From: Parcubacteria group bacterium Athens0714_12
GTDB taxonomy: Bacteria > Patescibacteriota > Patescibacteriia > UBA2591 > VMGY01
Direction of reading: 5' to 3'
Length of the DNA stretch: 37,788 nucleotides
Assembly: GCA_007378955.1 (NCBI GenBank)
Contig: VMGY01000012.1
Location: 1-37,788, forward strand
Shown: piece by piece, positions 3,971 through 37,627 of the stretch
How the letters are laid out: each line of letters starts with the position of its first letter
Position numbering within the stretch: the stretch's first letter is position 1
Translations under genes and position numbers: made by a program
Notes under the pieces: generated by a model
Told to the model about the DNA's origin: nothing
What the model saw: the letters and a program-made list of their open reading frames with translations, nothing else
Database searches by the model: none

Positions 3971-3972
3971 AA

Positions 3973-6506: not shown

Positions 6507-6548
6507 AGGCGTTAAAAATTTACCTATGTACTCATCTTGTACACGCTA

Positions 6549-6576: not shown

Positions 6577-6606
6577 GTTTAATATAAATAGATGGATCTT
6601 TGAAAA

Positions 6607-6646
6607 GCCAATATCTCGCCAATATCCTGTTGCTTTGCCAATATCC
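6607..6646 (+). repeat. Three GCCAATATC repeats in the 5' leader
   Basis: GCCAATATC occurs at 6607-6615, 6618-6626 and 6637-6645, between the promoter and the start codon. An inverted copy (GGATATTGGC, 7729-7738) lies just after the stop codon of the same gene. The copies could be regulator sites or could pair 5' and 3' ends of the mRNA. I see the repeats; the function is unknown. Confidence 0.65.
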
Positions 6647-6685
6647 GATTATTTTCAAACAAAAACAAAAAAGGAGGAAAAAGAA

Positions 6686-7720: not shown

Positions 7721-7740
7721 ATTAAAAGGGATATTGGCTA

Positions 7741-7775
7741 AAAGCCACAGCTTCAACAGCTGTGGCTTTTTATTT
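7741..7775 (+). terminator. Terminator of the beta-barrel-like gene
   Basis: AAAGCCACAGC and GCTGTGGCTTT form a perfect stem around a 7-nt loop and are followed by a T-rich tail. It lies 20 bp after the stop. Confidence 0.85.
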
Positions 7776-7836
7776 TTGGATTACGAAATGCCTAAAACGC
7801 GGCAGGACGCGCAGGACGGGGTCAGGTCTTACTTTA

Positions 7837-8706
7837 TTACTTTTTATTCTTTTTTTTCTCAACCTGTTTAATCACCCGGCTAACAGTTACATAATGAATC
7901 CCTAAATAATCAGCAATTTCTTTTAAAATATAGCCATAATAAACATAAGATTGATAAATGGTTTCTTTTTTTAATTCCTTATCCTTAAGTATTTTTTCGG
8001 TAAATAATTCATCAAGTGTTGGCCTTAATACATATCTTTGTGCTCTCGGCACTTCCTTTAGCCTTTCTTTGTCTTTCAATATGTCTTTAAATTTTTCAAT
8101 GAAATTATCTGCGCCGAGCAATATCTGCCCTTTTAAATCTTTCCACGGGGAATCTTCTTTAATTCCATCAAATATAAATTGTTTATATTGTTCCCTTGCT
8201 CTTATCTTGTTACTCCCAAATTGAAAAAGTATCCAGTCAACTGTCAAAAAACAAGGTTTTTTCACTTCTCCAATAATGGCCATATAACTACTCCATCGCC
8301 AATCTTGAGGCCATTTTACTAAACCTGCCCTTAAAGGATTTAAAACTACATAGCGGCATAATGATAAAAGATAACTATCTTTATCCACCAATATTGCCTT
8401 ATATCTTCCTTGAAACAGATGCCCAACTTTATTATGCCTTGTATTAAAAGACTGAGTATATACCCCATTTAACTGTCTCATCCCTCTGGATAAATTTCCT
8501 TCAGGCGTCTCAATAATTAAATGGTAGTGATTATCCATTAGGCAATAAGAATGGCAGATCCAGTTGAATCTCTCAATTACTAAAGACAATACTCTAAAAA
8601 AGTTACCCCTGTCCAAATCATCTTGAAAAATTATCTGTTTTGCGTTTCCTCTAGAAGTTATATGATAAATTGCTCCTGGATATTCTATGCGTAATGGTCT
8701 TGTCAT
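7837..8706 (-). CDS. REP-associated tyrosine transposase (Y1, IS200-like)
   Basis: The protein has 289 residues. It opens with 'MTRPLRIEYPGAIYHITSRG', continues with the HUH-type 'MDNHYHLIIETPEGNLSRGM' and then 'VGHLFQGRYKAILVD', all hallmarks of RAYT proteins. These nick and join single-stranded DNA at REP-like hairpins. The C-terminal 60 residues look like a helix-turn-helix ('LKEIADYLGIHYVTVSRVI'), common in this subfamily. The gene starts directly after a TATAAT-containing direct repeat with almost no leader, and GGTCAGGTCTT lies just beyond its 3' end. Confidence 0.92.
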   Translation of the reverse strand: MTRPLRIEYPGAIYHITSRGNAKQIIFQDDLDRGNFFRVLSLVIERFNWICHSYCLMDNHYHLIIETPEGNLSRGMRQLNGVYTQSFNTRHNKVGHLFQGRYKAILVDKDSYLLSLCRYVVLNPLRAGLVKWPQDWRWSSYMAIIGEVKKPCFLTVDWILFQFGSNKIRAREQYKQFIFDGIKEDSPWKDLKGQILLGADNFIEKFKDILKDKERLKEVPRAQRYVLRPTLDELFTEKILKDKELKKETIYQSYVYYGYILKEIADYLGIHYVTVSRVIKQVEKKKNKK

Positions 8707-9895: not shown

Positions 9896-11989
9896 TTATT
9901 CGTCTATCCTATAAACCTTAAGACGCACACAAGCATTTATCACATCTCCCGCTGTCTGAGTAATTGTAAATTTATACCTTATTGAATAAGTGCTGGAATA
10001 AGAAGTATTGTAATATTCAAAACTTTCTCCTTTTATTCTTGCGTTGCCATTCCAACAATCAGGGTCAAAACCTAACATTGGAATGTATTGTTTAAAAACA
10101 CCTACTGGTTGAGTATCAAAATATGGGGTTATAATCTCGTATTCCGGTCCAGCATTTGGGTCATACCTATTATCATATACTAAAGTAGCTCCTTTCAAAT
10201 TACTAACTCCAATTGAATTTAAACATCTTGATCCTGTGCAAATATCTCCTGACGCTTTTATATTACCACTAACATCTAATTTTTCACTTGGCGCCCCCGT
10301 CCCGATGCCGACGTTGCCGCTTCGAAAAACAACAAAACCCGTGGAATCAATATATAACCTGGTATCAGCACTACCACCACCAGTAAATCCAATTCGAGAA
10401 CCATCAGCATTATCACCGTTTAATGAAATGGCGTTATAGGCAGTATTGGATGTATTCGCGCCAAGAAGCATTTTAGTAGTGCCACCTGAATTTATATCCA
10501 ACTTCGCCCCCGGCGCCGTCGTCCCGATGCCGACGTTGCCGTCTGTAGTTATACGCATTCTTTCTGTAAGCACACTGCCATGAAGTCTGGTGGCAAAAGC
10601 CAAATATCCGCCATATTCCCCAGATGTTGAATTATTTTTGCCGCCTCTAATTCCGGCCCATCCGGCTCCGGCAGTGGAGCCAGCTAAGTACCTTCCGCCA
10701 AAGGCGATTGAACCGCCTCTGTCTACCGCCATATCCGAATTGCTTTGGATAAAGAGTTGTCCGGAAGCAGTATTAAAAGCGCGGTCTTCGCTGGAAATAA
10801 GTTGCGCGTATACGACATCACCGGCGGTATTCTGACCTCCGATACCCGTAACAATTGTAAGATTAGACCTGGGGTCAGTGGTCCCGATGCCGACGTTGCC
10901 GGTGGATGCTAAGATTGTCAGCTTTTCACTAAATGTCCCATAAGAACCTGTGTCAAAACCTATTCCTATTCGAGTTGCTGTTTGATGTGCCCAAATATTG
11001 AAATATCCTCCTGCATTTGTATTAAACCCCATACCATACCTTCCTTCAGAACCCATTCTGATAGCGTCAACATTTGATTCGCCATTCCCAAACATTAATT
11101 TTGAAGCAGGCGCCGTCGTCCCAATGCCGACGTTCCAAGCCGTATTTTGTGGATAAAGATTTGAGCCAGATTGAGTCCAATATCCTCCGCCTGCGGCCGC
11201 CCAACTTGCTTTACAGTCTCCATTAATACAAAGTCCGCCCGAAGCGTTAATTTGCCCTCCCTGAACATCAAGCTTATAACCCGGCGCCGTCGTCCCAATG
11301 CCTACATCGCCATTAGCTAAAATAGTCATTCTGTCTGCGCCGGCAGTGGAAAATCTTAAAATATCCACACCGCCACTATACATTCCTGTATTGGTGTCGG
11401 CACTGAAAGAAAAACCAGGGCCTGCCGCAGTTCCATTTGCGGCTTGCACTAACCTGCCGGAAGTTATTACTTGGGTGCCAGCCGCCTGCAGACTGCCAGA
11501 AACTAAATTCAAGGAATCACCAGGTGGTAAAGTAAGCGTATTGGCGGCTGAGCGGTATAATTCAACATCTGTGCCAAAAGCAATCCCGCCAGTTGCTGTG
11601 GTATGAGTGGCTAATTCTAATTTATGGGTTGGCGCTGTTATCCCGATGCCGACGTTGCCGTCTTTTGTCACTACCAACTTAGTCACATTTTCATTTTGAA
11701 GAAGCAATAAATTACCAACTGAAGTACTGTCAATATTGCCATAAATAAGGTTTTCTCCTGCCTGAAGAATTAAAGCATTACTGCCCACCATAAAACCCTT
11801 GGCTGTGGAAGAATTGCCTAAAATAGTCAAAGCTCCTTGCTTGTCTTGAGCGCCGGTTCCTACATTAACAGGCGCGTCCACATTGCCTAACGGAGGATTA
11901 AGACTTGGCTCGTTCCATTGCGCGAAAACAAAAAAAGGAGAAAGCATCAGGCAAAGAGCGAGGAAAAAGAAAGAGATGGTTTTTTTCAT
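9896..11989 (-). CDS. Secreted surface protein with GNVGIGTTAP repeats
   Basis: The start at 11989 (697 residues) is chosen because a signal peptide begins there (MKKTISFFFLALCLMLSPFF, cleaved near VFA-QW); the longer frame adds 22 residues without purpose. After it comes a 'PPLGNVDAPVNVG' segment that I associate with CPR surface proteins. Six copies of a motif close to GNVGIGTTAPxxKLDV follow, spaced 40-150 residues apart, as in phage tail-fibre-like and adhesin shafts. At DNA level the copies are recognisable as CCGATGCCGACGTTGCC on the plus strand. A Cys-containing C-terminal region follows (GDICTGSRCLN, FDPDCWNG). It is probably a cell-surface fibre or adhesin. Confidence 0.82.
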   Translation of the reverse strand: MKKTISFFFLALCLMLSPFFVFAQWNEPSLNPPLGNVDAPVNVGTGAQDKQGALTILGNSSTAKGFMVGSNALILQAGENLIYGNIDSTSVGNLLLLQNENVTKLVVTKDGNVGIGITAPTHKLELATHTTATGGIAFGTDVELYRSAANTLTLPPGDSLNLVSGSLQAAGTQVITSGRLVQAANGTAAGPGFSFSADTNTGMYSGGVDILRFSTAGADRMTILANGDVGIGTTAPGYKLDVQGGQINASGGLCINGDCKASWAAAGGGYWTQSGSNLYPQNTAWNVGIGTTAPASKLMFGNGESNVDAIRMGSEGRYGMGFNTNAGGYFNIWAHQTATRIGIGFDTGSYGTFSEKLTILASTGNVGIGTTDPRSNLTIVTGIGGQNTAGDVVYAQLISSEDRAFNTASGQLFIQSNSDMAVDRGGSIAFGGRYLAGSTAGAGWAGIRGGKNNSTSGEYGGYLAFATRLHGSVLTERMRITTDGNVGIGTTAPGAKLDINSGGTTKMLLGANTSNTAYNAISLNGDNADGSRIGFTGGGSADTRLYIDSTGFVVFRSGNVGIGTGAPSEKLDVSGNIKASGDICTGSRCLNSIGVSNLKGATLVYDNRYDPNAGPEYEIITPYFDTQPVGVFKQYIPMLGFDPDCWNGNARIKGESFEYYNTSYSSTYSIRYKFTITQTAGDVINACVRLKVYRIDE

Positions 11990-12086
11990 ATGGCTTGTGT
12001 TGTTAATTTTAATTATTAAATTATGTAATAAAATAAACATTGCCCATTTAAACAAATAATAAAATATTTTTCAAAATCGCCAAAGA

Positions 12087-13108: not shown

Positions 13109-14467
13109 ATGAAAATTTCAAAATATCTTCAAATAATTCAAGAAAAAAATGGTTCTCTTTGTTTCAATTCATTGATGGGAAATTTATTTTTTCTGGAACC
13201 GTTGTATATGAATACCTTGAAATCATTTCACTCACCTCGCGAACTCACGGAAAAAGAAAAAGAATCTTCCATTGTCTCTGAACTTATTGAAGCGCATTAT
13301 TTAATTAAAAATGACTTAGAAGAAAGAAATATCTTAAAGAAGCGCAATAAAAAATGGATAAAATCAGTTGTTGGCGGACGCCGTGTCTTCCTTTTGAATC
13401 TTATCGTCTCTGAAATTTGCAATATCGCTTGCCCTCATTGTCTGCACAAATGCTCTGTCAACACAAACTTGTCCCATGGAAACAAAAAGCTTATGGACTG
13501 GCCAACAGCCGAAGAATCAATTAATCTTTTTACTAATTTAATGGCAAAATGGAAACGAAAAGATTATACCGTAAGCTTTGGCTCCGCGGAACCATTAATA
13601 AATTGGCGTGTTTTAAAAAAATCAGTGATTTATTTAAAAAAAATAAATCCGGATATTAAAATAACTATAAATACCAATTTATTACTGATAGATAATGAAA
13701 AAGCGAAATTTTTCAAGGAAAATAACGTGTACTTGTCTACATCTTTAGACGGCCCAAAAAAAGGAAATGATCTTATCAGAATTTACGCTAATAAAAAAGG
13801 CACGTATGGCGATATACTGAACAAATTCAAACTATTAGCTAAGATAGGTTATCCTTTAGACGGTTTCAGTATAACTATCAACGACAAAAATTTTAATTAT
13901 GTTGACGCGAATTTTATTAAATGGGCTTCTAATCAGGGATTTAAGGGCATCGCGACAGATATTGATCTCATTAATACCTTAAATTCATCTCGTTCAGTTG
14001 ACGATTACGTTGACAAATTAATGGAATTAAGGAAAGCCTGCCTTGAGAGCGGTATGGAAAATTTTGGAAGCTGGACGACCGCTTACCACAATTTAGTTAA
14101 TGGCTGTGAAGATAATATGCCGACATTTTGCAAAGCCGCAAAAGGAAATAATGTTTCAATTAACCCCGAAGGCAATATCTTTATTTGCGGCCACACCAAT
14201 ACTCTTTTAGGAAATATCAAGTATTTTGAAAAAACTTTTTATCCTAAAAGTCCTTACTGCGATCTCATTGAGAAAAGATTACCGGGAAATAATCAAAATT
14301 GTTTTAGCTGTTATATTGAAGGAATATGCGCCGGCCAATGCCAAATAACAAGAGAAGCGGCCAAAAGGACAAAAAATAAGCGCGATTTATTTTTATGCAA
14401 TTTTTATCGGGCCGCAACTTTCAAACTTTTCAAAGAAAAATTACGGGCCGAATTAATAAATAATTAA
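13109..14467 (+). CDS. Radical SAM/SPASM peptide maturase
   Basis: The protein has 452 residues. The first 85 or so form a small domain typical of peptide-modifying SPASM enzymes and may bind the leader peptide. The cluster motif 'CNIACPHC' is at residues 104-111. The SPASM region carries 'CKAAKGNNVSINPEGNIFIC', 'CFSCYIEGICAGQC' and a final 'LFLCNFY'. The usual GGEP is replaced by 'FGSAEPLIN'. GGGGGTG supports the start at 13109. A 20-codon peptide gene follows after 11 bp and is the probable substrate. A divergent small gene and a convergent MFS transporter flank the locus. Confidence 0.9.
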   Translation: MKISKYLQIIQEKNGSLCFNSLMGNLFFLEPLYMNTLKSFHSPRELTEKEKESSIVSELIEAHYLIKNDLEERNILKKRNKKWIKSVVGGRRVFLLNLIVSEICNIACPHCLHKCSVNTNLSHGNKKLMDWPTAEESINLFTNLMAKWKRKDYTVSFGSAEPLINWRVLKKSVIYLKKINPDIKITINTNLLLIDNEKAKFFKENNVYLSTSLDGPKKGNDLIRIYANKKGTYGDILNKFKLLAKIGYPLDGFSITINDKNFNYVDANFIKWASNQGFKGIATDIDLINTLNSSRSVDDYVDKLMELRKACLESGMENFGSWTTAYHNLVNGCEDNMPTFCKAAKGNNVSINPEGNIFICGHTNTLLGNIKYFEKTFYPKSPYCDLIEKRLPGNNQNCFSCYIEGICAGQCQITREAAKRTKNKRDLFLCNFYRAATFKLFKEKLRAELINN

Positions 14468-15878: not shown

Positions 15879-16050
15879 TTACCCTGCCGCCACCTCAAAA
15901 CAAAACCTGCTCCCCTTGCCCTCGCCTTCGCTCTCTGACCAGATTTTGCCGCCGTGCGCTTCAATGTTTTTCTTGGCGATAAAAAGTCCCAAGCCAGAGC
16001 CGGTTTTGGAGATGTCCGGGATTATTGAGCCGCGGGTAAATTTGCCGAAC
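15879..16050 (-). pseudogene. Histidine kinase 3'-end remnant A
   Basis: On the minus strand this encodes only the last 55 or so residues of a histidine kinase ATPase domain, FGKFTRGSIIPDISKTGSGL and onward to 'GSRFCFEVAAG' and a stop. It is homologous but not identical to the 3' end of the intact kinase at 24821-27001. Homology stops sharply at GCCGAACA, where the terminator of the upstream cassette begins. Confidence 0.85.
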
Positions 16051-16080
16051 AAAAAAGGGTTATTTTTATGATAACCCTTT
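16051..16080 (-). terminator. Terminator of the six-gene cassette
   Basis: AAAGGGTTAT and ATAACCCTTT form a perfect stem. On the minus strand six T follow. The stem overlaps the stop codon of the gene at 16079. Confidence 0.8.
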
Positions 16081-20927: not shown

Positions 20928-21161
20928 TTATCTCGCAGGTACTTCAAAAACAAACCTGCTTCCCTTGCCCTCGCCCGCGCTTTCCACCCAGATTTTTCCT
21001 TTGTGCGCTTCAATGTTTTTCTTGGCGATAAAAAGTCCCAGGCCGGAGCCGGTTTTGGAGATGTCAGGGATGATGGAGCCGCGCGTAAATTTGCCGAACA
21101 GTTTATCCAAATCGTCTTTTTTGATTCCGATGCCCGTGTCAGAAATGGAAAAATGGCAAAG
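20928..21161 (-). pseudogene. Histidine kinase 3'-end remnant B
   Basis: This minus-strand stretch encodes 'LCHFSISDTGIGIKKDDLDK' through 'TGSGLGLFIAKKNIEAH' to 'GSRFVFEVPAR' and a stop. It covers the G1 and G2 boxes of the ATPase domain of a kinase closely related to the intact copy at 24821-27001. Nucleotide identity breaks off at ATGGCAAAG. The frame stays open to a stop at 21234-21236, which is the stop of the unrelated ORF upstream. There is no sensor or HisKA part, so it cannot be a kinase alone. Confidence 0.85.
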
Positions 21162-21233
21162 CTTTTTTTTATTATTAATTAAATCGTCATTAGTCAAAAA
21201 AGATGTTTGCGGATTAATTTTTTTAAGCCTGAA

Positions 21234-24820: not shown

Positions 24821-27001
24821 TTAAATCCCCACCTCAAAGCAGAATCTGCTCCCTTTGCCTTCGCCTTCGCTTTCCGCCCAGATTTTGCCGTTATGAGCTT
24901 CAATGTTTTTCTTGGCGATAAAAAGTCCCAAGCCGGAGCCGGTTTTAGAGATGTCCGGAATTATAGAACCGCGCGTAAATTTGCCGAACAGTTTATCCAA
25001 ATCGTCTTTTTTGATTCCGATGCCCGTGTCAGAAATGGAAAAATGGCAAAGATTATTTTCAAAATTTATTTCTATCGTAATTTTTCCCTTGTCGGTATAT
25101 TTAATGGCGTTATCCAATAAATTCAAAACCACGTCCTTTATTTTATCCCGGTCAACAAAAAGCAAATTGGATTTTGCCGCTTTTTTAAATTCCACTTTCA
25201 AATTCTTTTTATTTATGTCCGGCATAAATTCTTTGATGGTTTCTTCTATCAATTTATCCAAATCCACCTTGCTTTTTTCCAGGCTGAATTTTCCCATTTC
25301 AATGCGGGAAACATTAAGAAAAAGATTGACCAAACGGACTAATCTTTCCGTATTTTGCAGAAGGTCGCTGATGACTTCTGTTTTTTTCTCGTCAAGTTCG
25401 CCGAAATCGCCTTCCAAAAGCATTGATAAATAACCCTTTAAGCCGCTCAAAGGCGTTCTTAATTGATGGGAGGTGATGGAAATAAATTCTGTTTTTATTT
25501 GGTCCAATTTTTTCAATCTTTCATTGACTTTTTTTAAATCTTCCGTCGCTTTTTCCACTTCTAATTTTAATTTCTGGCTGAAATGATGCACTTCCTGATA
25601 AAGCTTCGCTTTTTCCAAAGCCGCGGCAAGCTGCGGCGACAAAACTTCAAAAAGGTTGATGTCTTCCTGCGCATACATATCGCCGGAAAGTTTTTTCCCT
25701 AAAAATAAAATTCCCGTTAATCTACCTTTGGTGAAAATAGGAGCGCAAAAAGCGGCGTTAAATTTTTCAAGGTCTGACTTTATTTTTTCCAATTCTTTTT
25801 TAACTTTACTGCCATTGCCGTCCGCGTCAATAATTTTTCTTTCCAGCTCGTCCGAGATAATTATTTCTTTATTTCTTTTCAAAAACTTAACCAAATAACT
25901 TTTTTGGTCAAAATCTATTATTTTTCTTCCGTTCAAATAATTTTCCTTCCTGAAAAATGATTTATTCTTGTCTGATAATAAAATATACGCTTCTTCAATT
26001 TTCAATTCTTTGGCAAGCGCGGATAAAAACTCGTCAAGCAAAGACTGCAAATCAAGCTCGTAAGAAATAATTTCGCTTAATTTTACTAAAATATCCTGAT
26101 AATTAATTCTGGCTTTAAAAAATATTTTGTCCGTTATTCTGCCCAAATATTTTTTTAAGGGGTCAAGGCTTAAAACGATAATTAAGGAAATAAGAAGAGT
26201 GATTAAAGTTTCATTAAAATCAGATAATTGATGCAAATACGTCACGGCTAAAAGACTGACAAAAGTAAACGCGCCCGCCACATAAACCACCAGCAAAGCG
26301 TAAAGCAAGCTCTTGCTAATCACCACCCGAATATCCATTAAGCGATATTTGACAATGGCGTAGGAAGTGAAGCCGATAAAAAATAAAAATCCGTAAATTC
26401 CTATTCTGAATAAACTCACAGGCAATATGTGCTGAAGAAAAAAATTTATTATTAAAGCCAAAAAAGCAGTCAAAGACAATCCTGTTAAAATATACAATGT
26501 TTGAAGTTTTTGAATTCCGTAACTTTTTTTATATTTAAAAATCAAATTCAAGCAACCTGTTCCGATGTAACCCAAAAGCGTTAAAATATAAAATATTGAT
26601 AATTTACCCCAAGAAAATTGTATTCTGCCTTGATAAAGTGTAATATTAGTGATAATTAAATCTGACAAAATAAAGATTGTAAGAATAACAATAGGAGAAA
26701 AGATTAAAAAAATTTTAATCTTTGAAAGGGTTAAATTAGGGCGATGAAAATAGAGGCAAAATAAAAGAAAAAAATAAGCGATTAATACGCCGGAAATAAA
26801 ATCTATTGTGAGAAATAAAATAGCCAATTCTAAATTAGTAATTTCGTTCTCCAAAAAATTACTGCTCATCCAAACCGCGGACCAAAATGTCAAAGCGCTA
26901 AAAAGCCGATTAATTCTATTTTGCCGACCTTTTAAATAAACTAAAAAACATAAAAATAGGTCGGCGGCCAAGATTAAAATAAATAAAAAATAACTTAGCA
27001 T
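24821..27001 (-). CDS. Histidine kinase with 7TM sensor and GAF domain
   Basis: The 726-residue protein begins with seven or eight hydrophobic segments over the first 260 residues, then a GAF-like region ('EEAYILLSDKNKSF', 'FCAPIFTKGRLTGILFLG'). A coiled linker leads to HisKA with the phosphoacceptor in 'FISITSHQLRTPLSGLKGYL' near residue 510. The HATPase has N box 'DVVLNLLDNAIKYTDKG', G1 'ISDTGIGI' and G2 'GSGLGLFIAK'. It is complete. No response regulator is adjacent; the receiver protein at 12087 is the only one in the window. Three truncated relatives of its 3' end lie to the left. It is divergent from the RaSEA-like gene. Confidence 0.93.
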   Translation of the reverse strand: MLSYFLFILILAADLFLCFLVYLKGRQNRINRLFSALTFWSAVWMSSNFLENEITNLELAILFLTIDFISGVLIAYFFLLFCLYFHRPNLTLSKIKIFLIFSPIVILTIFILSDLIITNITLYQGRIQFSWGKLSIFYILTLLGYIGTGCLNLIFKYKKSYGIQKLQTLYILTGLSLTAFLALIINFFLQHILPVSLFRIGIYGFLFFIGFTSYAIVKYRLMDIRVVISKSLLYALLVVYVAGAFTFVSLLAVTYLHQLSDFNETLITLLISLIIVLSLDPLKKYLGRITDKIFFKARINYQDILVKLSEIISYELDLQSLLDEFLSALAKELKIEEAYILLSDKNKSFFRKENYLNGRKIIDFDQKSYLVKFLKRNKEIIISDELERKIIDADGNGSKVKKELEKIKSDLEKFNAAFCAPIFTKGRLTGILFLGKKLSGDMYAQEDINLFEVLSPQLAAALEKAKLYQEVHHFSQKLKLEVEKATEDLKKVNERLKKLDQIKTEFISITSHQLRTPLSGLKGYLSMLLEGDFGELDEKKTEVISDLLQNTERLVRLVNLFLNVSRIEMGKFSLEKSKVDLDKLIEETIKEFMPDINKKNLKVEFKKAAKSNLLFVDRDKIKDVVLNLLDNAIKYTDKGKITIEINFENNLCHFSISDTGIGIKKDDLDKLFGKFTRGSIIPDISKTGSGLGLFIAKKNIEAHNGKIWAESEGEGKGSRFCFEVGI

Positions 27002-27094: not shown

Positions 27095-28170
27095 ATGGGT
27101 ATTCATTTATTAGTCAATCCAATAAAATGGGTGAAAAAAAATTTTGGCAAAAAAAGAACAGATTTTTTGATTAATCTAATCAGTGGTGGTGAAAATTTTT
27201 ATTATTTGGACAAAATTTACGATTCTCAGCAAAAAAGGCTTGTTAAACGATTAACGTTATTATTACCCGGTAAAGGGTGCAGTTGGGCAAAAATATCAGG
27301 TGGCTGTTCAATGTGCGGCTTTCCAAGCAAAGTAAAAGAGATAGGAAAAAAATTTTCTGCCGATGATTTAATAGGTCTTTACAAAATAGCGGAATTAATG
27401 ACTATTGAAGAAAGGCCTGAGAATTTAACCATTTACAACGCGGGCAGTTTTCTAAATGATGAAGAAATTTCGCCAAAGGCCCAAATAGAAATAACTAATT
27501 TAGTCAAAAAACATCCTTCTATTAAATTATTATTTATAGAATCTCGCGCGGAATTTGTTACTAGCCAAAAAATAAAAAAATTAACTTCTCTTTTGGAAAA
27601 TAAAAAATTGGAAGTAGGTATTGGTTTAGAAGCAGTTAATGAAAAAGTAAGAAATAAATTTATTAATAAAGGATTATCTTTAAAAACATACGAGGAAGCG
27701 ATAAAAACTCTTAAAAAAAACAAAGCTTTATCTTCAACTTATGTTTTCATTAAACCGTTATATCTAAATGAATGGGAAGCAATAGAAGAAGCAATAATAA
27801 CCGCTGAATATGCCCATAAAACAGGGTCGGATAAAATTAATTTTGAAGCGGCTTTTGTGCAAAAAGGCACATTATTAGCCGCGTTTTATGAAAAAGGAGA
27901 ATTCCGTCCGCCGTGGCTTTGGAGCATTCGTGGCTTTGGAGCATTATTGAAGTATTAAAAAGAACTCATCATCTCAATAATATTCAAATCGGCAATTTCA
28001 ACGATGAACCCCCGCCTATCGCTATCCCCCACAACTGCCCGAAATGTTCGTCTCAAATTGAAAAAATTATCCGGCAATACAGAGAAACGAATAATATCCA
28101 TCTTTTTGACGAGCTTGATTGCGAATGCAAGGAGGAATGGAAAAAAATTATTGCTAAATATATTGACTAA
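27095..28170 (+). pseudogene. RaSEA/TIGR01210-like radical SAM gene, frameshifted
   Basis: The cluster motif is CSWAKISGGCSMC (Cx8CxxC, residues 62-74), the Elp3-like spacing of the archaeosine-synthase radical SAM family. 'NLTIYNAGSFLNDEEI' and 'FIESRAEF' are further family marks. The frame is broken by a 17-bp tandem duplication (27912-27945). As it stands, translation stops at 27958 after 287 residues. Removing one copy restores 352 residues with a C-terminal Cys-rich part (NCPKCSS, DCECKEEW). A truncated second copy at 31842-32035 lacks the duplication. It is unknown whether the bacterial protein acts on tRNA. Confidence 0.82.
27912..27945 (+). repeat. 17-bp tandem duplication
   Basis: CGTGGCTTTGGAGCATT occurs twice in a row (27912-27928 and 27929-27945). 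It shifts the reading frame of the radical SAM gene. The remaining gap 28171-28351 is AT-rich and shows no feature I can name. Confidence 0.95.
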
Positions 28171-28351: not shown

Positions 28352-28885
28352 TCACATCAAATCTTTTAACCCAAATTCCATTAACTTCTTTTTCATTAAT
28401 TCATTAACTCTTTTCTCGTTTTCTTTATGATCTAATGCCTCATGATGAACAGATAAAAGATGAACTATCTCATGAACTAAAACACGTTTCCACCAGTGGT
28501 CGTTTTGAAAATTGGTTATTCTTATAAAAACAGTGGATAATTCAGGGTAATAACTGCCACCAGGTCCAAATGGAATTAGGGCAACATTATAGATACTTGG
28601 TTCTTGCACCCCTAAATCCTTTGCTAAGGATTCGGCAAATTTTCCACCCATTTTTTTCCACCATTTTTCAATTTCAAAAGCGAGTTTTCTCGCCTCTTTC
28701 GGCCAAGTTGATTTCTCCCAAAAACGTTTAGCGGCTTCTTTGTAAGTTTCATTGTCATCTTTTTTGATTGGTAAATTTGGATTCAACCCCCATTTTTTAT
28801 AATTCCCGTTTTCAAAATTCCTTATAGTTTTATTTAAATCTATTAAAGTTTGATCAAGAGAAACTATTATTTGAATATTTTTCAT
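28352..28885 (-). CDS. Putative metalloprotease with HEIVH motif
   Basis: From the methionine at 28885 (MKNIQIIVSLDQ) the protein has 177 residues; a longer frame to 28933 adds 16 unlikely residues. The zinc-binding motif is in 'VLVHEIVHLLSVHHEALDHK', an HExxH with a possible third ligand in the later HHE or HKE. No signal peptide or membrane segment is seen, so it is cytoplasmic. It is unrelated in sequence to the other HExxH protein at 32123. It lies next to a Cys-rich RiPP precursor locus and might cut leader peptides, though a strong terminator separates them. Confidence 0.6.
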   Translation of the reverse strand: MKNIQIIVSLDQTLIDLNKTIRNFENGNYKKWGLNPNLPIKKDDNETYKEAAKRFWEKSTWPKEARKLAFEIEKWWKKMGGKFAESLAKDLGVQEPSIYNVALIPFGPGGSYYPELSTVFIRITNFQNDHWWKRVLVHEIVHLLSVHHEALDHKENEKRVNELMKKKLMEFGLKDLM

Positions 28886-28923
28886 ATTTATAAATATAAT
28901 CAATTTTTTAAAATAAGTAAAGG

Positions 28924-28957
28924 AAAAGGGCAATATTTAAAAAATATTGCCCTTTTT
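28924..28957 (-). terminator. Terminator after the first Cys-rich precursor
   Basis: AAAAGGGCAATATT and AATATTGCCCTTTT form a perfect 14-bp stem around a 6-nt loop. It can work on both strands and ends the operon 30288-28987. Confidence 0.88.
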
Positions 28958-28986: not shown

Positions 28987-29190
28987 TTATCTTCCATCAT
29001 CGCAGTCTGAAATTCCGCAATCCCCTTCGCAATCACACTGTCCGCCGCCATGCCCGTTGTCACACTGCGAACAAACGCAATCTCGTCCTCCTTCATCTTG
29101 GCAGATGGAATTTTCTTGAATTATTGCATTATGTGTTGCTTGAATATGGGACCCTTTTAAATTTTCAAGAAAACTAATAAGCTCTCTCAT
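28987..29190 (-). CDS. Cys-rich RiPP precursor peptide, 67 residues
   Basis: The start at 29190 is set by AAGGAGGTG just upstream; a longer frame lacks support. The N-terminal part (MRELISFLENLKGSHIQ) looks like a helical leader. The C-terminal half holds eight Cys in a Gly/Asp-rich context: ICQDEGGRDCVCSQC, then GQCDCEGDC, then SDCDDGR. There is no signal peptide. It follows the radical SAM/SPASM gene, and thioether or similar links made by that enzyme are the natural expectation. Metal binding (metallothionein-like) is an alternative. The acidic end resembles that of the second precursor at 32876. Confidence 0.78.
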   Translation of the reverse strand: MRELISFLENLKGSHIQATHNAIIQENSICQDEGGRDCVCSQCDNGHGGGQCDCEGDCGISDCDDGR

Positions 29191-29212: not shown

Positions 29213-30288
29213 TTAGAATTTGTTTTTTTGAGAAGCAAATTCTTTTTGATAACTCATAAAATCTTCGGGATCTCTACTGCTCCAGAATGCAATGCAACCA
29301 CCCTTACAAATTCCCCAGTAGTCACAATCAACACACCCTTTAGATCTTGCTACCGATGCCTTATTTCTAAGTTCGTACATCTGAGAAGAATTCCAAAATG
29401 TTAAGAATTTATCTCTTGAAGAAAATAATTCATTCGTTTCTTGATAATCAGTAATAGGAAAATCAGCAAAATGAGTGCAAAGGCATAGAGAATTATCACT
29501 AGAAATGACAAATCCTCCGCCATACTGAAGTTGACAAATATACCTAATCAACCTCTGAGTGATTAGTTCATCTATAAATTTTCTAGGAAAGTTACAGAAA
29601 GGGACTGTAAGCAAAAAACTCACCTTAATCCCGTATAACTTTACTATTTTATGTATCTCTTGGCAACTTTCAGAAATTTGTTCAGGGGTCAAAACCTCTT
29701 TATCTATAATAGTGCCATTTTTAGAAAGAACTGGGGCAGCGATATTACAGATAGTCCATTTTACTGAATTTCTCTTTATAAAATCTAAAATTTCCTTTAA
29801 ATTATTATAAAGAGTCCGACCCAATGTTATCTCAAACGACACTTTTATACCGGCTTCAATAATATTAGCAAGAGCTATTTCAAGACACTCAAACGCATCA
29901 TTTTTTGTATTATCCAGATAAGATTTTTTTGACCAGCCGTGCAAAGAAATGGTTAAATTTTCTAATCCTGCTTTTAGACAATTTTGAGTAAATTTTTTGT
30001 CAGCAAATTTTAAACCATTTGTAACTAATGCTAAATTCAATCCCTCTTGCTCAATAAGAGAAACAAATTCAGTGAAAGCTGGGTGAAGAGTTGGTTCACC
30101 GCCAATTAAAATACATCTTTGCAAGCCAACTTCTTTTATAGTTGGAAAAAAAATTTAGCAAAAACATCAAAATTTAAATGACGAATCTGCCCAAGACCAC
30201 TTAGGGATCTATAGCACCAAATGCATCTATTCTGACAAGCATCTGATAACGATAACCAAAAAACTTTTGGTTTTACTTCTGTATTCAT
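29213..30288 (-). CDS. Radical SAM/SPASM maturase, frameshifted at poly-A
   Basis: The true start is the ATG at 30288 after AAAGGAGGTT. The first frame encodes 'VFWLSLSDACQNRCIWCYRS' with the cluster cysteines at residues 18, 22 and 25, then hits a stop. The rest, from 'CILIGGEPTLHP' to the SPASM end 'GCVDCDYWGICKGGCIAFW', is in another frame. The shift lies at a run of eight A on the plus strand (30146-30153). Removing two or adding one restores about 357 residues. It could be a sequencing error, a real mutation or programmed slippage. The Cys-rich precursor follows 22 bp later. Promoter and leader motif are at 30315-30382. Confidence 0.85.
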
Positions 30289-31454: not shown

Positions 31455-31836
31455 TAATAAAAAAATCACCGAAAAAGGTGATTATTAAATTAAATAAATT
31501 ATTTGATTTTGATTGTTGTTCTTGGCATTGCTCCCGCAACCAACATTCAAAAACATCTCTCCCAATCCCTTTGTTTCAGCCAAACTCGCCCATTTTTCCC
31601 GACTATTCTTCATTTTGCCGTTCAATTCTTCTTTCAGCCATTTCAGAAATACATCAAATACGCCTCCCTTGTTGAATCCGCGACTGCGTCTCTCCGCCGC
31701 GGCTGTGCAAAAAACAAAAAACCCTTCGTTCGCCTCCTTGTCTAAGCTTTCGCTTATTAGGCATATTTTTTAGATTAACTGCTTTTAGCATAGCATATCT
31801 TTCCGCTTTTGGCAAATGAAAATTTATGGTATAGTT
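31455..31836. repeat. 382-bp dispersed repeat, copy 1
   Basis: Copy 1 is homologous over its full length to 35200-35581, with scattered substitutions and a few 1-bp indels. Boundaries are sharp: TAATAAAAAAATCACC at one end and GGTATAGTT at the other. It contains no consistent reading frame. On the plus strand its far end is fused to a radical SAM gene remnant. Confidence 0.9.
31459..31780 (-). ncRNA. Candidate structured ncRNA, copy 1
   Basis: A promoter TTGCCA (31810-31815), 17 bp, TATGCT (31787-31792) faces left. A terminator AATCACC..GGTGATT with a T tract lies at its end (31464-31483). Between them are a GNRA-type hairpin TAAGCGAAAGCTTA (31743-31756), a stem GAACGAA/TTTGTTT and a GC-rich CCGCG..CGCGG hairpin. 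All three are kept in copy 2, with pairing preserved through G-U changes. Confidence 0.55.
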
Positions 31837-31841
31837 TATCA

Positions 31842-32035
31842 CATAAAACAGAAACAGATAAAATTAATTTTGAAGCGGCTTTTGTGCAAAAAGGCACATT
31901 ATTAGCCGCGTTTTATGAAAAAGGAGAATTCCGTCCGCCGTGGCTTTGGAGCATTAACAATACAGGGAAACGAATAATATCCATCTTTTTGACGAGCTTG
32001 ATTGCGAGTGTAAGGAGGAATGGAGAAAAAAGAAA
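31842..32035 (+). pseudogene. 3' remnant of a RaSEA-like radical SAM gene
   Basis: The plus strand matches the gene at 27095-28170 almost base for base from CATAAAACAG through the 'PPWLWSI' codons, then after an internal deletion of roughly 130 bp from AATACAG to GAGGAATGGA. It has no start and is fused to copy 1 of the 382-bp repeat. It carries only one copy of the 17-bp unit that is doubled in the longer gene, so it preserves the ancestral form at that site. The flanking 32036-32122 shows nothing more. Confidence 0.88.
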
Positions 32036-32122: not shown

Positions 32123-32800
32123 TTACGAATCAACATTTTTTATTAAATGTTTAATATTTTTATCTTTTCGCCAAAGACCAATAATTTGATTTCTTAAATC
32201 CTTATGCTCTTTATATCCATAATCTGGCCTTGATAAAATTCCTTCAAACTCTTCGTTTAGCAAAACCGTTAAAGATTCTCTCAAATCATTAAATCGTTTT
32301 TGCGGCAATCCTAAATCTTTACAGAAAAAACCGTATGCGCGCACAAATTCTATGTGCATAATTTCATGAGCCGCTATCGCGTCAACTTTTTCATCTTTAA
32401 TCCTTACCATAAACCATCCTTCAGGCACATTAAAAGGGCAACTGCCGGCATTAGTAAGATAGGCGGTATAAATATTATTTTTTGGTATAGTGATATTCAA
32501 TACAAAAGACAGTTTATCAAAATAAGTATTGTTAATTTTATTCCACTCTTGACTAAAGGATTTGATTTTACCTTTTATTAATTTTTTCTCCTTTTCTAAA
32601 AAATTAGCAAGGTAATTTTTAATAATTTGTTTTTTTATTAATAAATCTTTTTCTTTTTTAACTTTTTCCACCAGACTCTTATCTATGCCAATTAAACACT
32701 TTGATTTATCTTCTTTATCAAAAAAAGGGGGTGTATCAATAACCCTTAAAATATTCCACCCGTCTTTAGAAATATCATATTTAAATTCAACTTTTGGCAT
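32123..32800 (-). CDS. Putative metallopeptidase with HEIMH motif
   Basis: The 225-residue protein has no signal peptide. The zinc motif is in 'VDAIAAHEIMHIEFVRAYG', followed some 20 residues later by 'FNDLRESLTVLLNEEFEGIL', which could supply a glutamate ligand. Upstream 'FNVPEGWFMVRI' is not a motif I know. The family is not recognised. It is immediately downstream of the second Cys-rich precursor on the same strand, 76 bp after its stop, with a strong terminator between. It may process the leader of that peptide, but this rests on position only. Confidence 0.62.
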   Translation of the reverse strand: MPKVEFKYDISKDGWNILRVIDTPPFFDKEDKSKCLIGIDKSLVEKVKKEKDLLIKKQIIKNYLANFLEKEKKLIKGKIKSFSQEWNKINNTYFDKLSFVLNITIPKNNIYTAYLTNAGSCPFNVPEGWFMVRIKDEKVDAIAAHEIMHIEFVRAYGFFCKDLGLPQKRFNDLRESLTVLLNEEFEGILSRPDYGYKEHKDLRNQIIGLWRKDKNIKHLIKNVDS

Positions 32801-32875: not shown

Positions 32876-33034
32876 TTATTTGCTATCATCACAAGTACTC
32901 CTATCACAATAACATGATTCGCCATAACACTCGCAAGGATCGCCGGGATTATAACACTCATCACATCCACCATTAAGCACTTTTTGATGATTTCCGGTAC
33001 TTTTTTCGATTACGGAAAGAATTTCTGGGTTCAT
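32876..33034 (-). CDS. Cys-rich RiPP precursor peptide, 52 residues
   Basis: The peptide was found by reading the gap after the radical SAM gene. GGAGGAGG lies 3-4 bases before the ATG. The first 20 residues (MNPEILSVIEKSTGNHQKVL) look like a leader. The core then holds seven Cys, mostly as CxxC or CxC pairs: GGCDECYNPGDPCECYGESC, then YC and DRSTCDDSK. A terminator follows directly. It starts 14 bp after the stop of a radical SAM/SPASM enzyme that carries a peptide-recognition domain. The CxC pairs and acidic tail resemble the precursor at 28987-29190. Confidence 0.8.
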   Translation of the reverse strand: MNPEILSVIEKSTGNHQKVLNGGCDECYNPGDPCECYGESCYCDRSTCDDSK

Positions 33035-33048: not shown

Positions 33049-34365
33049 TTATATTTTGATTCGACTTATAACTTTTCTTTTAACTATAGATGCAATAAAT
33101 TTTGACAATTTTTCAGTATCAATATCTACTCTTTTTAATAAATCATCCATTGTAAAATCTTTCAATAGATTAATTGTCTGTAATATTTTGTAGCCATCGT
33201 GATTGACTAAAATTGCTCCTGAAAGAGTAGCCGACACAATAGCGCCAAAATCTTCTTCGCGAAATCTTAAATTATCTTGTAATACATACTTATCTCCGGG
33301 GTTTAAATTATCAATAGAATGATTGATGGGTGAAGTTGAATCAATAATTATCTCGTTTTGACTTGTCATATACGGATCTTTGCCGCAAATATCACCTAAA
33401 TATTTAGCCTCCATTCTGCATCCTCCACTACAAAAATCAATAAACTTGCATCTCTTACATTCAATTGGTATATACTTACCATCTCTCCAATCTGACATTT
33501 TTTCCCAAATATCAATTAAATCTTCTTTAAAAATATTTCCGTAAATCATATCGGAATGAGAGCATGGCCTTATTTCTCCCGCTGAGCTGATCGTACAGGT
33601 TGTAATGCCTGCTGTACAACTTCTACGCGCAAAATGAAAAAATCTATGCAAATCTCCTATTAAACAAAGGGGGTAACATTCTAGAATATCAACACTTAAA
33701 TTCAATTCTTTTTTAATTTTTTCAAGTAAATTTAAACTTTCTTTCACTTGACTCCTTGTCGGACGTAAATCGTTAAAATTACGATTATTTAATGCTGGAG
33801 ACGCTTTAGTTACCGAGAATAATTGCACACCTATGCTCTTTAAAAATTTTGCGGTTTCATATATGCAATCAAAATTTTGTTTTAGCAAAACCATATTGGC
33901 GCTAACCCTTATTCCTTCTGAAACAGCTACTTTTATACCTTTAATTGTTTGCTGCCACGAACCCTGATGATTGGAAATCTTGTCATGAATTTTTTCACTA
34001 GTTGACAAAACTGAAACTAAAACCGATTTTAACCCACTATTTCTTAATGATCTTGCTTTTTCTTTTTCTAATAAAATAAGATTAGAATTTAAGCTTACTT
34101 GTATCCCACTTAAAGATAATTTACTAATAGCAGAAAGCAAATCTTCCCAAAAAATTAATGGCTCGCCGCCTGTTAGGGTCACCGAAAATATCTTATTATC
34201 TATAAGCTTATTGACAATAAAAAGTAAGTCTTTTTCTGTAAGTGATTTAAAATCTTTCTTTGTGTTTTCACGCCAATGGTTATAGCAATATGTACAATTA
34301 TTATTGCAAAGTTCTGTTATTTCAATCTGTGTAGAAATTGGTGCTCTTAATTTTCTGTATTTCAT
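33049..34365 (-). CDS. Radical SAM/SPASM maturase with C-terminal PqqD-like domain
   Basis: The protein has 438 residues. The cluster motif CNNNCTYC lies at residues 20-27, and TLTGGEP follows. SPASM cysteines are in 'CTAGITTCTISSAGEIRPC' and 'ECKRCKFIDFCSGGC'. The last 75 residues ('DNLRFREEDFGAIVSATLSG' to 'SKFIASIVKRKVI') look like a PqqD-type winged helix, the leader-recognition element (RRE) of RiPP enzymes, here fused at the C-terminus. AAAGGAGG precedes the ATG, and the Cys-rich precursor follows after 14 bp. The promoter and leader motif are at 34420-34487. This is the most complete RiPP enzyme in the window. Confidence 0.9.
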   Translation of the reverse strand: MKYRKLRAPISTQIEITELCNNNCTYCYNHWRENTKKDFKSLTEKDLLFIVNKLIDNKIFSVTLTGGEPLIFWEDLLSAISKLSLSGIQVSLNSNLILLEKEKARSLRNSGLKSVLVSVLSTSEKIHDKISNHQGSWQQTIKGIKVAVSEGIRVSANMVLLKQNFDCIYETAKFLKSIGVQLFSVTKASPALNNRNFNDLRPTRSQVKESLNLLEKIKKELNLSVDILECYPLCLIGDLHRFFHFARRSCTAGITTCTISSAGEIRPCSHSDMIYGNIFKEDLIDIWEKMSDWRDGKYIPIECKRCKFIDFCSGGCRMEAKYLGDICGKDPYMTSQNEIIIDSTSPINHSIDNLNPGDKYVLQDNLRFREEDFGAIVSATLSGAILVNHDGYKILQTINLLKDFTMDDLLKRVDIDTEKLSKFIASIVKRKVISRIKI

Positions 34366-35199: not shown

Positions 35200-35581
35200 T
35201 AATAAAAAAATCACCTAAAAAAGGTGATTATTAAATTGAATAAATTATTTGATTTTGATTATTGTTCTTGGCATTGCTCCCGCAACCAACGCTCAAAAAC
35301 ATCTCTCCCAATCCCTCTGTTTCAGCCAAACCCGCCCATTCTTCCCAATTATTCTTTATCTTGCCGATTAATTCTTTTTTCAGCCATTCAAGAAATACAT
35401 CAAATACGCCCTTCCTGTTAACTCCGCGACTGCGTCTCTCCGCCGCGGCAGGCAAAGAACAAAAAACCCTTTGTTCGCCTCCTTGGCTAAGCTTTCGCTT
35501 ATTAGGCATATTTTTTAGATTAACTGCTTTTAGCATAGCATATTTTTTATCTTTTGGCAAACGAAAATTTGTGGTATAGTT
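35200..35581. repeat. 382-bp dispersed repeat, copy 2
   Basis: It is homologous over its full length to 31455-31836. A minus-strand frame of 109 codons is open here but is shifted in copy 1. In the stretch I aligned, most codon differences change the amino acid, so the frame is not conserved as protein. A divergent TATAGT on the plus strand may serve the gene at 35608. Confidence 0.9.
35204..35525 (-). ncRNA. Candidate structured ncRNA, copy 2
   Basis: The promoter TTGCCA (35555-35560), 17 bp, TATGCT (35532-35537) and the terminator AATCACC..GGTGATT with a T tract (35204-35229) match copy 1. Internal hairpins are TAAGC-GAAA-GCTTA (35488-35501), GAACAAA/TTTGTTC and CCGCG..CGCGG. The predicted RNA is about 322 nt. 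It does not resemble tmRNA, RNase P or 6S RNA by the motifs I know. Confidence 0.55.
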
Positions 35582-35607: not shown

Positions 35608-36432
35608 ATGAAAATAGACCAAAATATAATCAAAAATATTTTAACAACTATAAATTACGTCTCGCATAAACACAGATCTCCCTATATACTAAACCTACAA
35701 AAACAAAAGCAAGACCTTTTTATTTACGGCTGTGAACATTCCAATAATTATAAAGAAAAAAAATTTAAAAAAATAGAACAATTATACCGTAAATTTTTGG
35801 ATAAATATGGCAAAAAAGAAACATTAATAATTATTGAGGGGAGTATCCCCGATAAAAATTACCTCATAAAAAAAATGGTAAGCAAATACAGAGAAAGTGG
35901 TTTTATGTATAAATTAGCTCTTAGAAATAGCGTTAAAAAAATTTCCGTGGAACCAACTTTAAAGGAAATAAAAAGTTTTGTTTTAAGCCGGCGACATAAA
36001 AAAATAGATATCCTTGCATGGATATTCTGCAACATATTAGTAAATAAATTAAAAATTAGTAAAAAAATAACCACTAAAGATATCAATAATTTTAAAAAGC
36101 TTATTAAAACGTTTCTAAATAATGACAAAAATATTTATAAAAAAGTAGCTGATAGAATTAATCATTTTGGCGGAGAAAACATTCTACCCGAAAGTATTTA
36201 TTCATTAAAAAAAAATAATCTTAACTTAAGATTATTAAAAAAAATAGAAAACCCTTTTATTAATAATACGCCTATAAATTTAGTAGGGGCTGATTTTAAC
36301 TTGGCGAGAGATTATTTTATGGCAAAAAAAATTTTATATTTACTAGAAAAAAAGAAAAATATTTTTGGCGTTTTAGGATTAAACCATCTCGTTTCACAAA
36401 CATCAGCGATAAAAAAATATTTTTTAAAATAA
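35608..36432 (+). CDS. Hypothetical protein, possibly EreA/ChaN/TraB-like fold
   Basis: The 274-residue basic protein is not firmly recognised. Short conserved-looking strands are 'DLFIYGCEHSNNY' near residue 40, 'ETLIIIEGSIPD' near residue 75 and 'IFGVLGLNHLVSQTS' near the end. An EH, a later acidic residue and a terminal H on strand ends recall the erythromycin-esterase/ChaN/TraB superfamily of putative hydrolases or haem-binding proteins; this is only an impression. There is no signal peptide. It is the only plus-strand gene in the 28-37 kb block apart from remnants. It is expressed from the promoter at the edge of the 382-bp repeat and ends at a terminator shared with the graspetide precursor. 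Confidence 0.6.
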   Translation: MKIDQNIIKNILTTINYVSHKHRSPYILNLQKQKQDLFIYGCEHSNNYKEKKFKKIEQLYRKFLDKYGKKETLIIIEGSIPDKNYLIKKMVSKYRESGFMYKLALRNSVKKISVEPTLKEIKSFVLSRRHKKIDILAWIFCNILVNKLKISKKITTKDINNFKKLIKTFLNNDKNIYKKVADRINHFGGENILPESIYSLKKNNLNLRLLKKIENPFINNTPINLVGADFNLARDYFMAKKILYLLEKKKNIFGVLGLNHLVSQTSAIKKYFLK

Positions 36433-36470
36433 AAAAGGAAGCGGTTTTTATGCTTCCTTTTTTATTTTTT
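36433..36470. terminator. Bidirectional terminator between convergent genes
   Basis: AAAAAAGGAAGC and GCTTCCTTTTTT form a 12-bp stem with a 9-nt loop. It serves the plus-strand gene ending at 36432 and the minus-strand precursor ending at 36475. Confidence 0.88.
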
Positions 36471-36474: not shown

Positions 36475-36609
36475 TTAATCGTCATCACAAGGGCATACTC
36501 CCCAAGTGACACAATCCCTCGCCTGATCACTGCCATTTTCTATTTTAATAGAATCGGGCAGAATCAGGGCGAAATCAAGAAAAAACGGCCTTTCAAGATT
36601 TTTTTCCAT
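36475..36609 (-). CDS. Graspetide-like precursor peptide, 44 residues
   Basis: The peptide was found by reading the gap after the ATP-grasp gene. The start at 36609 follows AAAGGAGGGAAAG. The leader is MEKNLERPFFLDFALILPDS; RPFFLDF resembles the PFFARFL leader helix that microviridin ATP-grasp enzymes recognise. The core region is 'DQARDCVTWGVCPCDDD', with one Thr and several Asp suitable for ester or amide macrocycles and three Cys that are unusual for graspetides. There is no TxKxPSD core. The start overlaps the ATP-grasp 3' end by 17 bp and a terminator follows. Confidence 0.8.
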   Translation of the reverse strand: MEKNLERPFFLDFALILPDSIKIENGSDQARDCVTWGVCPCDDD

Positions 36610-37627
36610 TACCTTTCCCTCCTTTTTTTGATAATTTTATTAAAACTTCCGCAAATGCTTTGGAAATAGGTAAATTTGTCATGTGTTCTAACCAGCCCCA
36701 TTGTCCATTAGGATTATCTTCCAAAAAAACTATTTTATCATCTGGCGTCATAATCAAATCAATAACACCAAAAGTTAATCTAAAGCTTTTTGTAAAAGAT
36801 ATTAATTTTTTATTAATTGTTTTTCCTAAATCAATTGGTTTATGCGGCATTTCTTTTAATTTACCCATAACTGCGGCTTTTCTATAATCCACCACTCCTT
36901 CTGCAATATTTTGGGAATAAATAGCAACAGAAAACACCTGGTTGTCGACCACTACGGAACGAATATCAAATTTCTTTGGAATATGTTGCTGTAGAAACAT
37001 CGGGCAAAAACGCATTCTCTTTAGATGAATATCGTCCATCGCGTCTTTTGGTATTTTAGTTGTATGAACTAAATATCTTTTGCCATCCTTAAATTGAAAC
37101 AATCCTTTCCTAATCTTTTTAAAAATTACTTCTCGATCAGCCTCCTCCCAAAATTTTTTTATCGCTTCTAAATTATCGGTGATGCAAGTTAAAGGTATCT
37201 CCAAGTCAAAAGAAGCAGCTCTTTCCATTTGTATCATTTTATTAAACTTTAAACGCTCGTTAATTTCCCAGGGATTGGCTACAGGGCACCGCAACATAGT
37301 AAAAGAAATATTCATTGCCCATTCTGATTCGTCAATCATCCAATTTTTTAAATCTGGTTCGTGATCTAATTCGAAACCAATATTAGGTTTATGAATCCGC
37401 CTATTCCAAACTACACCGATTTCTTCAAATTCAAGATCGCGATCAGGAAATTGATATTTTCCAAAAAAATTTCCTTTCTTGTCTAAACGCATAATTACTT
37501 TTATCTTTGAGTGAAATTCATCTGTGTTAAATCTAATAAAATCCAATCTTCTTTTTACCAAATGTTCTATAACAAGCTGCGCGCAATCATCCTGAGAATG
37601 TGTAAGTATTAATATCTTTTTATTCAT
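36593..37627 (-). CDS. MvdD-like ATP-grasp peptide ligase (graspetide synthetase)
   Basis: The start is placed at 37627 after AGGAGG (344 residues); a longer frame lacks support. 'MNKKILILTHSQDDCAQLVI' and 'IGVVWNRRIHKP' are N-terminal marks of MvdC/MvdD-type enzymes. The ATP-grasp core shows 'REVIFKKIRKG', 'FLQQHIPKKFDIRSVVV' and 'GVIDLIMTPDDKIVFLEDNP' with NGQW, giving the metal-binding D and ExN residues. These enzymes use ATP to form ester or amide side-chain links in precursor peptides. The PFF-containing precursor overlaps its 3' end. Only one ligase is present, so a single bond type is expected. The upstream leader carries the shared motif at 37666-37690. Confidence 0.9.
   Translation of the reverse strand: MNKKILILTHSQDDCAQLVIEHLVKRRLDFIRFNTDEFHSKIKVIMRLDKKGNFFGKYQFPDRDLEFEEIGVVWNRRIHKPNIGFELDHEPDLKNWMIDESEWAMNISFTMLRCPVANPWEINERLKFNKMIQMERAASFDLEIPLTCITDNLEAIKKFWEEADREVIFKKIRKGLFQFKDGKRYLVHTTKIPKDAMDDIHLKRMRFCPMFLQQHIPKKFDIRSVVVDNQVFSVAIYSQNIAEGVVDYRKAAVMGKLKEMPHKPIDLGKTINKKLISFTKSFRLTFGVIDLIMTPDDKIVFLEDNPNGQWGWLEHMTNLPISKAFAEVLIKLSKKGGKGNGKKS

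Follow-up and report, generated by a model that had tools for sequence, protein, structure and literature searches.

The window, a 37,788-nucleotide stretch that is an entire contig, ends in a three-gene cassette comprising an ATP-grasp enzyme of the graspetide ligases, a 44-residue precursor peptide and a Tiki/TraB-like putative peptidase. What was established is the gene content of the cassette, the conservation of these genes, the fact that they occur together one-to-one in six genomes, and the family of the enzyme. It is reasonably probable that this is a CPR graspetide cassette whose product carries an ester ring and a Cys-Cys disulfide, the leader being removed by the TraB-like protein. 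Enzyme, precursor and putative peptidase form a minimal testable kit with an invariant core, and they pose a chemical question, the native use of cysteine by graspetide enzymes. CPR bacteria grow attached to or together with other microbes, and to our knowledge their chemical means are almost unknown. The elements of the cassette in the window are as follows.

36593 to 37627, minus strand: ATP-grasp graspetide synthetase, 344 aa, ATG at 37627 and stop at 36593 (PF21068, profile and Foldseek matches)
36475 to 36609, minus strand: graspetide precursor, 44 aa, MEKNLERPFFLDFALILPDSIKIENGSDQARDCVTWGVCPCDDD (ORF; leave-one-out profile; homologues beside the enzyme in five other loci)
36571 to 36588, minus strand: leader motif PFFLDF, residues 8-13 of the precursor
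36478 to 36516, minus strand: core DCVTWGVCPCDDD, residues 32-44, at the exact C-terminus (family pattern D-C-x-[ST]-W-x4-C-D-D-D)
36617 to 36622, minus strand: ribosome-binding site of the precursor, GGAGGG (from the sequence)
35608 to 36432, plus strand: Tiki/TraB-like putative metallopeptidase, 274 aa, convergent with the precursor (adjoins it in 6/6 loci; GxxH motifs)
36426 to 36468, plus strand: terminator-like hairpin between the convergent precursor and TraB-like genes (18-pair stem and T-run)

The ATP-grasp gene was located at the end of the contig, which stops upstream of the enzyme. The precursor was found directly 3′ of it on the same strand, beginning within the final codons of the enzyme gene (17 nt overlap). 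No match to a second ATP-grasp of this kind was obtained elsewhere in the host genome (826,950 bases, rated 100% complete). The region contained two terminator-like hairpins where 1.5 would be expected, which makes the hairpin weak evidence on its own. The Rfam scan of the window returned two tRNAs only. Ribosomal protein bL30 had no match in the host genome in a search that detected it in 13 of 14 control genomes; its absence is presumably a trait of CPR bacteria and was used as a sign of this group. The 0.83-Mb genome, the bL30 result and Wolfebacteria as the closest named relatives of the enzyme support the CPR host claimed in the first-pass annotation: the host is probably a CPR (Patescibacteria) bacterium, tiny and probably host-dependent in lifestyle.

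In the leader, an E, the P and the DF of its motif were invariant across the six precursors, as were an IE ahead of the core and D-C-x-[ST]-W-x4-C-D-D-D, which runs to the last residue. The donor Thr/Ser (T35 in the window) and the acceptor DDD were thus invariant, and this Thr/Ser was the only invariant donor of the usual type; no family member contained Lys in the core. The first-pass annotation had described a microviridin-like PFFLDF leader and a core without TxKxPSD. Both descriptions were borne out: P, D and F of the motif were invariant in 6/6 loci, the Phhx(1,2)h leader pattern occurred in 5/5 distinct precursors, and TxKxPSD occurred in 0/5. It had also remarked on three core cysteines, which are present in the window peptide but do not hold as a family feature, because only C33 and C41 were conserved (fixed spacing, 6/6) and C39 was peculiar to the window.

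A chance reading frame of only 44 codons was considered and refuted, and we regard it as practically impossible. A leave-one-out profile built from the five other precursors found the window ORF as the sole hit in its 826,950-base genome (E 4.9e-17). Across 380 genomes of the window's class, the precursor profile gave four strong hits (E 3.6e-25 to 9e-23), which were exactly the loci with the four closest ATP-grasps, each beside its enzyme; the remaining nine hits were weak (E 0.0168 to 0.1). The pattern DC.[ST]W.{4}CDDD, searched in six frames of 80 records (476,012 bases, duplicates included), recovered only the six homologous loci and their duplicates, and it arose in 0/200,000 shuffles of the window peptide. 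Codon choice differed at 12/14 invariant residues among the five distinct precursors, which indicated that the precursor is conserved as a protein. Every precursor start was preceded by a GGAGG- or AGGAG-like ribosome-binding site. When the PFF leader was searched as a DNA pattern in 379 genomes of the phylum, four genomes matched, and the window's own was the only match within a precursor. The graspetide locus proposed in the first-pass annotation is real, and its coordinates were exact.

The same enzyme, precursor type and TraB-like gene were found in five other genomes, with 48-66% identity to the enzyme of the window. Two loci belonged to Wolfebacteria (L002 and L003; enzyme 66% identical, from one scan of genome contigs). 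Among the 380 class genomes, 14 had an enzyme match, and three of these besides the window were close (L024, L025, and L026; 49-56%). Of the 13 other matching class genomes, 11 were taken in, and G548 and G499 were left out for short or weak matches. A second search matched 20 other genomes, and the flanks of 10 were read. Precursor candidates near other ATP-grasps were restricted to ORFs on the strand of the enzyme, no more than 2.5 kb away, that carry a Phhx(1,2)h-like pattern. In a comparison of 25 ATP-grasp regions, the precursor was present in six, and the TraB-like gene was present in those same six and in 0/19 others. The six enzymes formed a single clade with 100/100 support in a tree of 23 ATP-grasp rows, for which the tool warned that long branches meet elsewhere in the tree, and none of 500 shuffles was as clustered.

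In all six loci the precursor immediately followed the enzyme, in the same orientation. The precursors of the other five loci were 42-46 aa long, alike in leader and core, and five distinct peptides were present among the six loci because both Wolfebacteria precursors were identical. From a reading of its ORFs, each cassette contained only the ATP-grasp, precursor and TraB-like genes. In L003, exactly these three genes were enclosed, with a histidine kinase gene on one side and a repeated copy of that gene's 3′ end on the other, which indicated that they behave as a unit. Among the proteins tested, an ABC exporter was found near the L003 cassette only, and no dedicated exporter was common to all loci. 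A gene for DUF6624 adjoined the cassette at L025 only; we infer that it corresponds to cluster 23 of Makarova et al. (PMC8939145). At this locus, a 40-nt repeat (93%) at 3745-3784 and 6147-6186 flanked the three-gene cassette, and it may mark the border of an insertion or be an upstream element that is shared.

The first-pass annotation had called the enzyme MvdD-like. This stood at the level of the domain, since PF21068 (the MvdD pre-ATP-grasp domain) matched above the Pfam cut-off (4.9e-15), but NCBIfam ranked MvdC (TIGR04185, 206 bits against a cut-off of 425) above MvdD (TIGR04184, 194 against 475), followed by SAV_5884 and grasp-with-spasm (TIGR04192, 140 against 230), all well under their cut-offs. 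The profile of the enzyme family matched the solved structure of MdnC (5ig9, 2e-53) and also MdnB (5ig8), AMdnB (7m4s), and CdnC (7mgv). Foldseek with the predicted model, a mediocre one (mean pLDDT 70.5), likewise returned 5ig9 first (6.6e-23). E303 and N305 of the FLExNP motif were invariant in 6/6 enzymes. The MdnC-type profile and structure matches, together with the NCBIfam scores below cut-off, place the predicted protein within the graspetide ligases and outside every named subfamily. Relatives occurred in 73 plasmid records, all below 60% identity, the best among the 10 listed being 31% (Nostoc). No viral relatives were confirmed when viral contigs were scanned once with the enzyme alignment (600 candidate stretches).

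The enzyme superfamily also includes RimK, and the NCBIfam rimK_fam model matched the enzyme at 1.9e-9. RimK targets typically have acidic C-termini, and that of the precursor resembles them, so the enzyme might ligate an amino acid or another amine onto the Asp triad in the manner of RimK, without cyclising. We give this very little chance: the PFF leader, like the pre-ATP-grasp MvdD domain, is a feature of graspetides, MdnC, MdnB, and CdnC were far better fits than RimK, and such ligation gives no reason for the invariant Thr/Ser.

The third gene was absent from the account of the locus in the first-pass annotation. Its homologues adjoined the precursor in 6/6 loci but had diverged, with 23-36% identity to the window's protein. 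Two GxxH motifs (G41..H44 and G257..H260) were invariant in 6/6 proteins, and E77, E115, R234, and D235 were also kept. We take two GxxH motifs to be the mark of the Tiki/TraB/EreA/ChaN superfamily. The Pfam model TraB_PrgY_gumN (PF01963) reached 16.1 bits in the window protein against a cut-off of 26.8 (E 0.01), and one of the six members matched it at E 1 or better. The predicted model (confidence 87.9) gave weak fold matches, including EreC (erythromycin esterase) and ChaN, at Z 6.8 to 7.0, and unrelated rows scored as high. A PDB sequence search with the TraB-like profile gave no meaningful match. The motifs, together with the mention of TraB/Tiki proteins for branch 2 in the text of Makarova et al. 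(PMC8939145), suggest that the gene encodes a putative Tiki/TraB/EreA-like peptidase.

In a draw of 275 genomes, a TraB-like match was found in six, two of them in the cassette, and three of the other four were read (L101 to L103). L101 and L103 had TraB-like relatives with no ATP-grasp match in the stretch read, and L102 had one beside a radical SAM-like gene, also with no ATP-grasp. Since such relatives occur without an ATP-grasp, a wider and more general part of TraB-like proteins in peptide maturation is possible. These relatives and the weak fold match count against the role proposed for the gene in the cassette. Between the radical SAM-like and TraB-like genes of L102, at 1591-1860 on the plus strand, there was a short W-D-repeat frame ending NNWRGDWDKWDNWDQWDQNR, perhaps a peptide precursor.

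The most likely product carries one Thr/Ser-Asp ester ring and a Cys-Cys disulfide, with its leader cut by the TraB-like protein. By analogy with the family, the ATP-grasp enzyme would bind the PFFLDF leader and phosphorylate, at the expense of ATP, one carboxylate in the C-terminal Asp triad. T35, the invariant Thr/Ser two residues past C33, would then attack, closing a macrolactone of approximately 8-10 residues (-18 Da). The general scheme of leader docking, carboxylate phosphorylation and donor attack is described in PMC13097080. Because no core has Lys, the link is expected to be an ester and not an amide. The convergent Tiki/TraB-like protein would cut off the leader, and after export a disulfide between C33 and C41 (-2 Da) would give a compact bicyclic peptide. 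Several links per peptide are typical of the graspetide synthetases characterised so far (PMC13097080, available text), and the single invariant Thr/Ser counts against this reading. We guess, in line with the text of Makarova et al. (PMC8939145), that the peptide may be secreted as a weapon or a signal passing between CPR cells and their hosts.

The paired cysteines, invariant like the Asp residues and at fixed spacing, could also be native donors. C33, and perhaps C41, would then form thioesters, giving a labile, perhaps reactive omega-thioester peptide. The i, i+2 spacing of the C-x-T donors and the D-x-D acceptors fits a hairpin with T35-D42 inside and C33-D44 outside, and graspetide synthetases form thioesters efficiently once the native donor is replaced (PMC12291112). 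However, C41 adjoins the acceptors, which leaves too little room for a separate ring; thioesters are unstable, and a disulfide explains the paired cysteines more simply; the linkage is termed non-native in PMC13097080, and no native case is given in the available text of PMC12291112 or PMC13097080, while that of PMC13003496 has no bearing on the matter. We hold native thioester formation to be unlikely, and its specific form, a natural hairpin with one ester and one thioester in which Cys and Thr/Ser serve as native donors to the Asp triad, to be slightly more doubtful still. If true, this would perhaps be the first native Cys donor in the graspetide class, made by ultra-small CPR bacteria.

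Two further peptide-like systems were arranged in line on the contig of the window.

28352 to 28933: HExxH protein of the first system, followed by a Cys/Asp-rich ORF, a radical SAM gene and a methyltransferase
28987 to 29190, minus strand: Cys/Asp/Gly-rich 67-aa ORF ending CDDGR, between the radical SAM gene and the HExxH protein, a RiPP-like precursor
32123 to 32800: HExxH protein (HEIMH) of the second system, LiaK-like but far under the cut-off
32876 to 33034, minus strand: Cys/Asp-rich 52-aa ORF ending CDDSK, between the SPASM radical SAM gene and the HExxH protein, a RiPP-like precursor
33049 to 34365: SPASM radical SAM gene (CNNNCTYC), followed by a protein with a weak RimI match

Neither Cys/Asp-rich ORF had a Pfam or NCBIfam match. 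Their ends, CDDGR and CDDSK, compare with CDDD in the graspetide precursor, and with two more Cys/Asp-rich peptide systems on the contig, a whole family of these peptides may be produced by a single cell. In the first system, the CxxxCxxC start of the radical SAM gene at 29213 apparently lies in a different frame, at about 30100-30193 (minus strand), broken near a T-run, which may reflect an error of assembly or a frameshift.

A SPASM radical SAM gene was also found near the cassette of L002 (8732-10033), and SPASM genes are noted in branch 2 loci in the text of PMC8939145. The neighbouring radical SAM enzymes might therefore modify the graspetide precursor as well, adding Cys thioethers alongside the ester links. 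We consider this highly improbable, as the SPASM radical SAM gene of the window has its own Cys-rich precursor alongside, and L024, L025, and L026 showed no radical SAM among the Pfam-tested proteins, the contigs of L025 and L026 being short. The Cys/Asp richness and the CDD at the ends of both radical-SAM precursors, with the invariant Cys and Asp of the family, would also suit a metal-binding peptide for metal uptake or storage, in which the ring fixes the ligands and two Cys and DDD bind the metal with no disulfide. No metal transporter or regulator was noticed among the genes tested beside the six cassettes, and we judge this metallophore-like function improbable compared with the esterified, disulfide-closed peptide.

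The first-pass annotation had suggested a new graspetide core type in a CPR bacterium. Graspetide loci in CPR bacteria were already reported in 2022 by Makarova et al. (PMC8939145), so that the host group is not new, but the core is distinct from those of microviridins and of CPR branch 1. The family shares the ATP-grasp fold and the PFF leader with the microviridins (MdnA with MdnB/MdnC; MvdC/MvdD), and its best solved relative is MdnC. Microviridins are made by a pair of ATP-grasp enzymes, whereas the window genome has one, with MvdC and MvdD scores under half of the cut-offs; neither TxKxPSD nor Lys is present in the core, which contains two invariant Cys. A microviridin core was rejected on this basis (TxKxPSD in 0/5 distinct precursors).

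CPR branch 1 has a TxxxTx(6-10)Dx(1-4)D core, with exceptions noted within the branch (PMC8939145, available text). A CPR host, an ATP-grasp and the Phhx(1,2)h leader are in common with it, but the core pattern was found in 0/5 distinct precursors, and the branch 1 enzymes were only 27-31% identical and formed a separate clade; this identity was also rejected. Precursors of branch 1 type were found at L029, L033, L034, and L073. Three contigs of one genome (G572, with L026, L028, and L029) each carried a graspetide-type ATP-grasp gene, in one case with a DC-CDDD core and in another with the branch 1 core TSGTTSGT.

Branch 2 is described with TraB/Tiki, zincin, SPASM, and methyltransferase neighbours, and most of its loci are given without a confident precursor (PMC8939145, available text). 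The CPR host, TraB/Tiki, a zincin, SPASM radical SAM and UbiE-like methyltransferase nearby, and the Phhx(1,2)h leader are all in common with this branch. Its tandem cluster 342 and Giovannoni precursors, compared by text description, do not fit the single DC-CDDD precursor. Compared with the text of that paper rather than its tables, the DC-CDDD peptide looks like one of the missing precursors of branch 2, and the family probably supplies precursors that the 2022 survey missed. Groups 27 and 42 of a 2026 RODEO survey (PMC13097080), compared by description, also come from candidate bacterial phyla, and group 42 includes DUF6624, as beside L025. The core fits neither the branch 1 nor the microviridin signature, while the neighbours fit branch 2; it is thus a new core variant within the known graspetide class, and it may stand unremarked in a supplementary table. 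No relevant publication on graspetides with Wolfebacteria, or on the core strings, was found in the searchable literature, which took in main text and few subscription journals.

Repeats of gene 3′ ends, chiefly of histidine kinase genes, bordered blocks in the window and in the Wolfebacteria loci, which suggests, from the sequences, that the cassettes were traded and inserted behind kinase genes. In the window, the 3′ end of a histidine-kinase-like gene (24821-27001, minus strand) was repeated in frame at 20940-21179 and 15891-16052, with 90-96% protein identity, at gene-block borders. In L002, the kinase gene and the repeats of its 3′ end were located at 2849-4495, 7666-7845, 8495-8635, 12011-12070, and 13597-13662; in L003, the kinase gene at 6237-7877 and the repeat at 10227-10376 enclosed the three-gene cassette. 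A RaSEA-like radical SAM gene of the window (27095-27958, plus strand; NCBIfam 188 of 212 bits) had its 3′ end (27815-27958) repeated at 31839-31967, beyond the first radical SAM block. At 31455-31836 and 35200-35581 the window contained a direct repeat (about 380 nt, 91%), with two copies genome-wide, each just upstream of a minus-strand peptide-system block.
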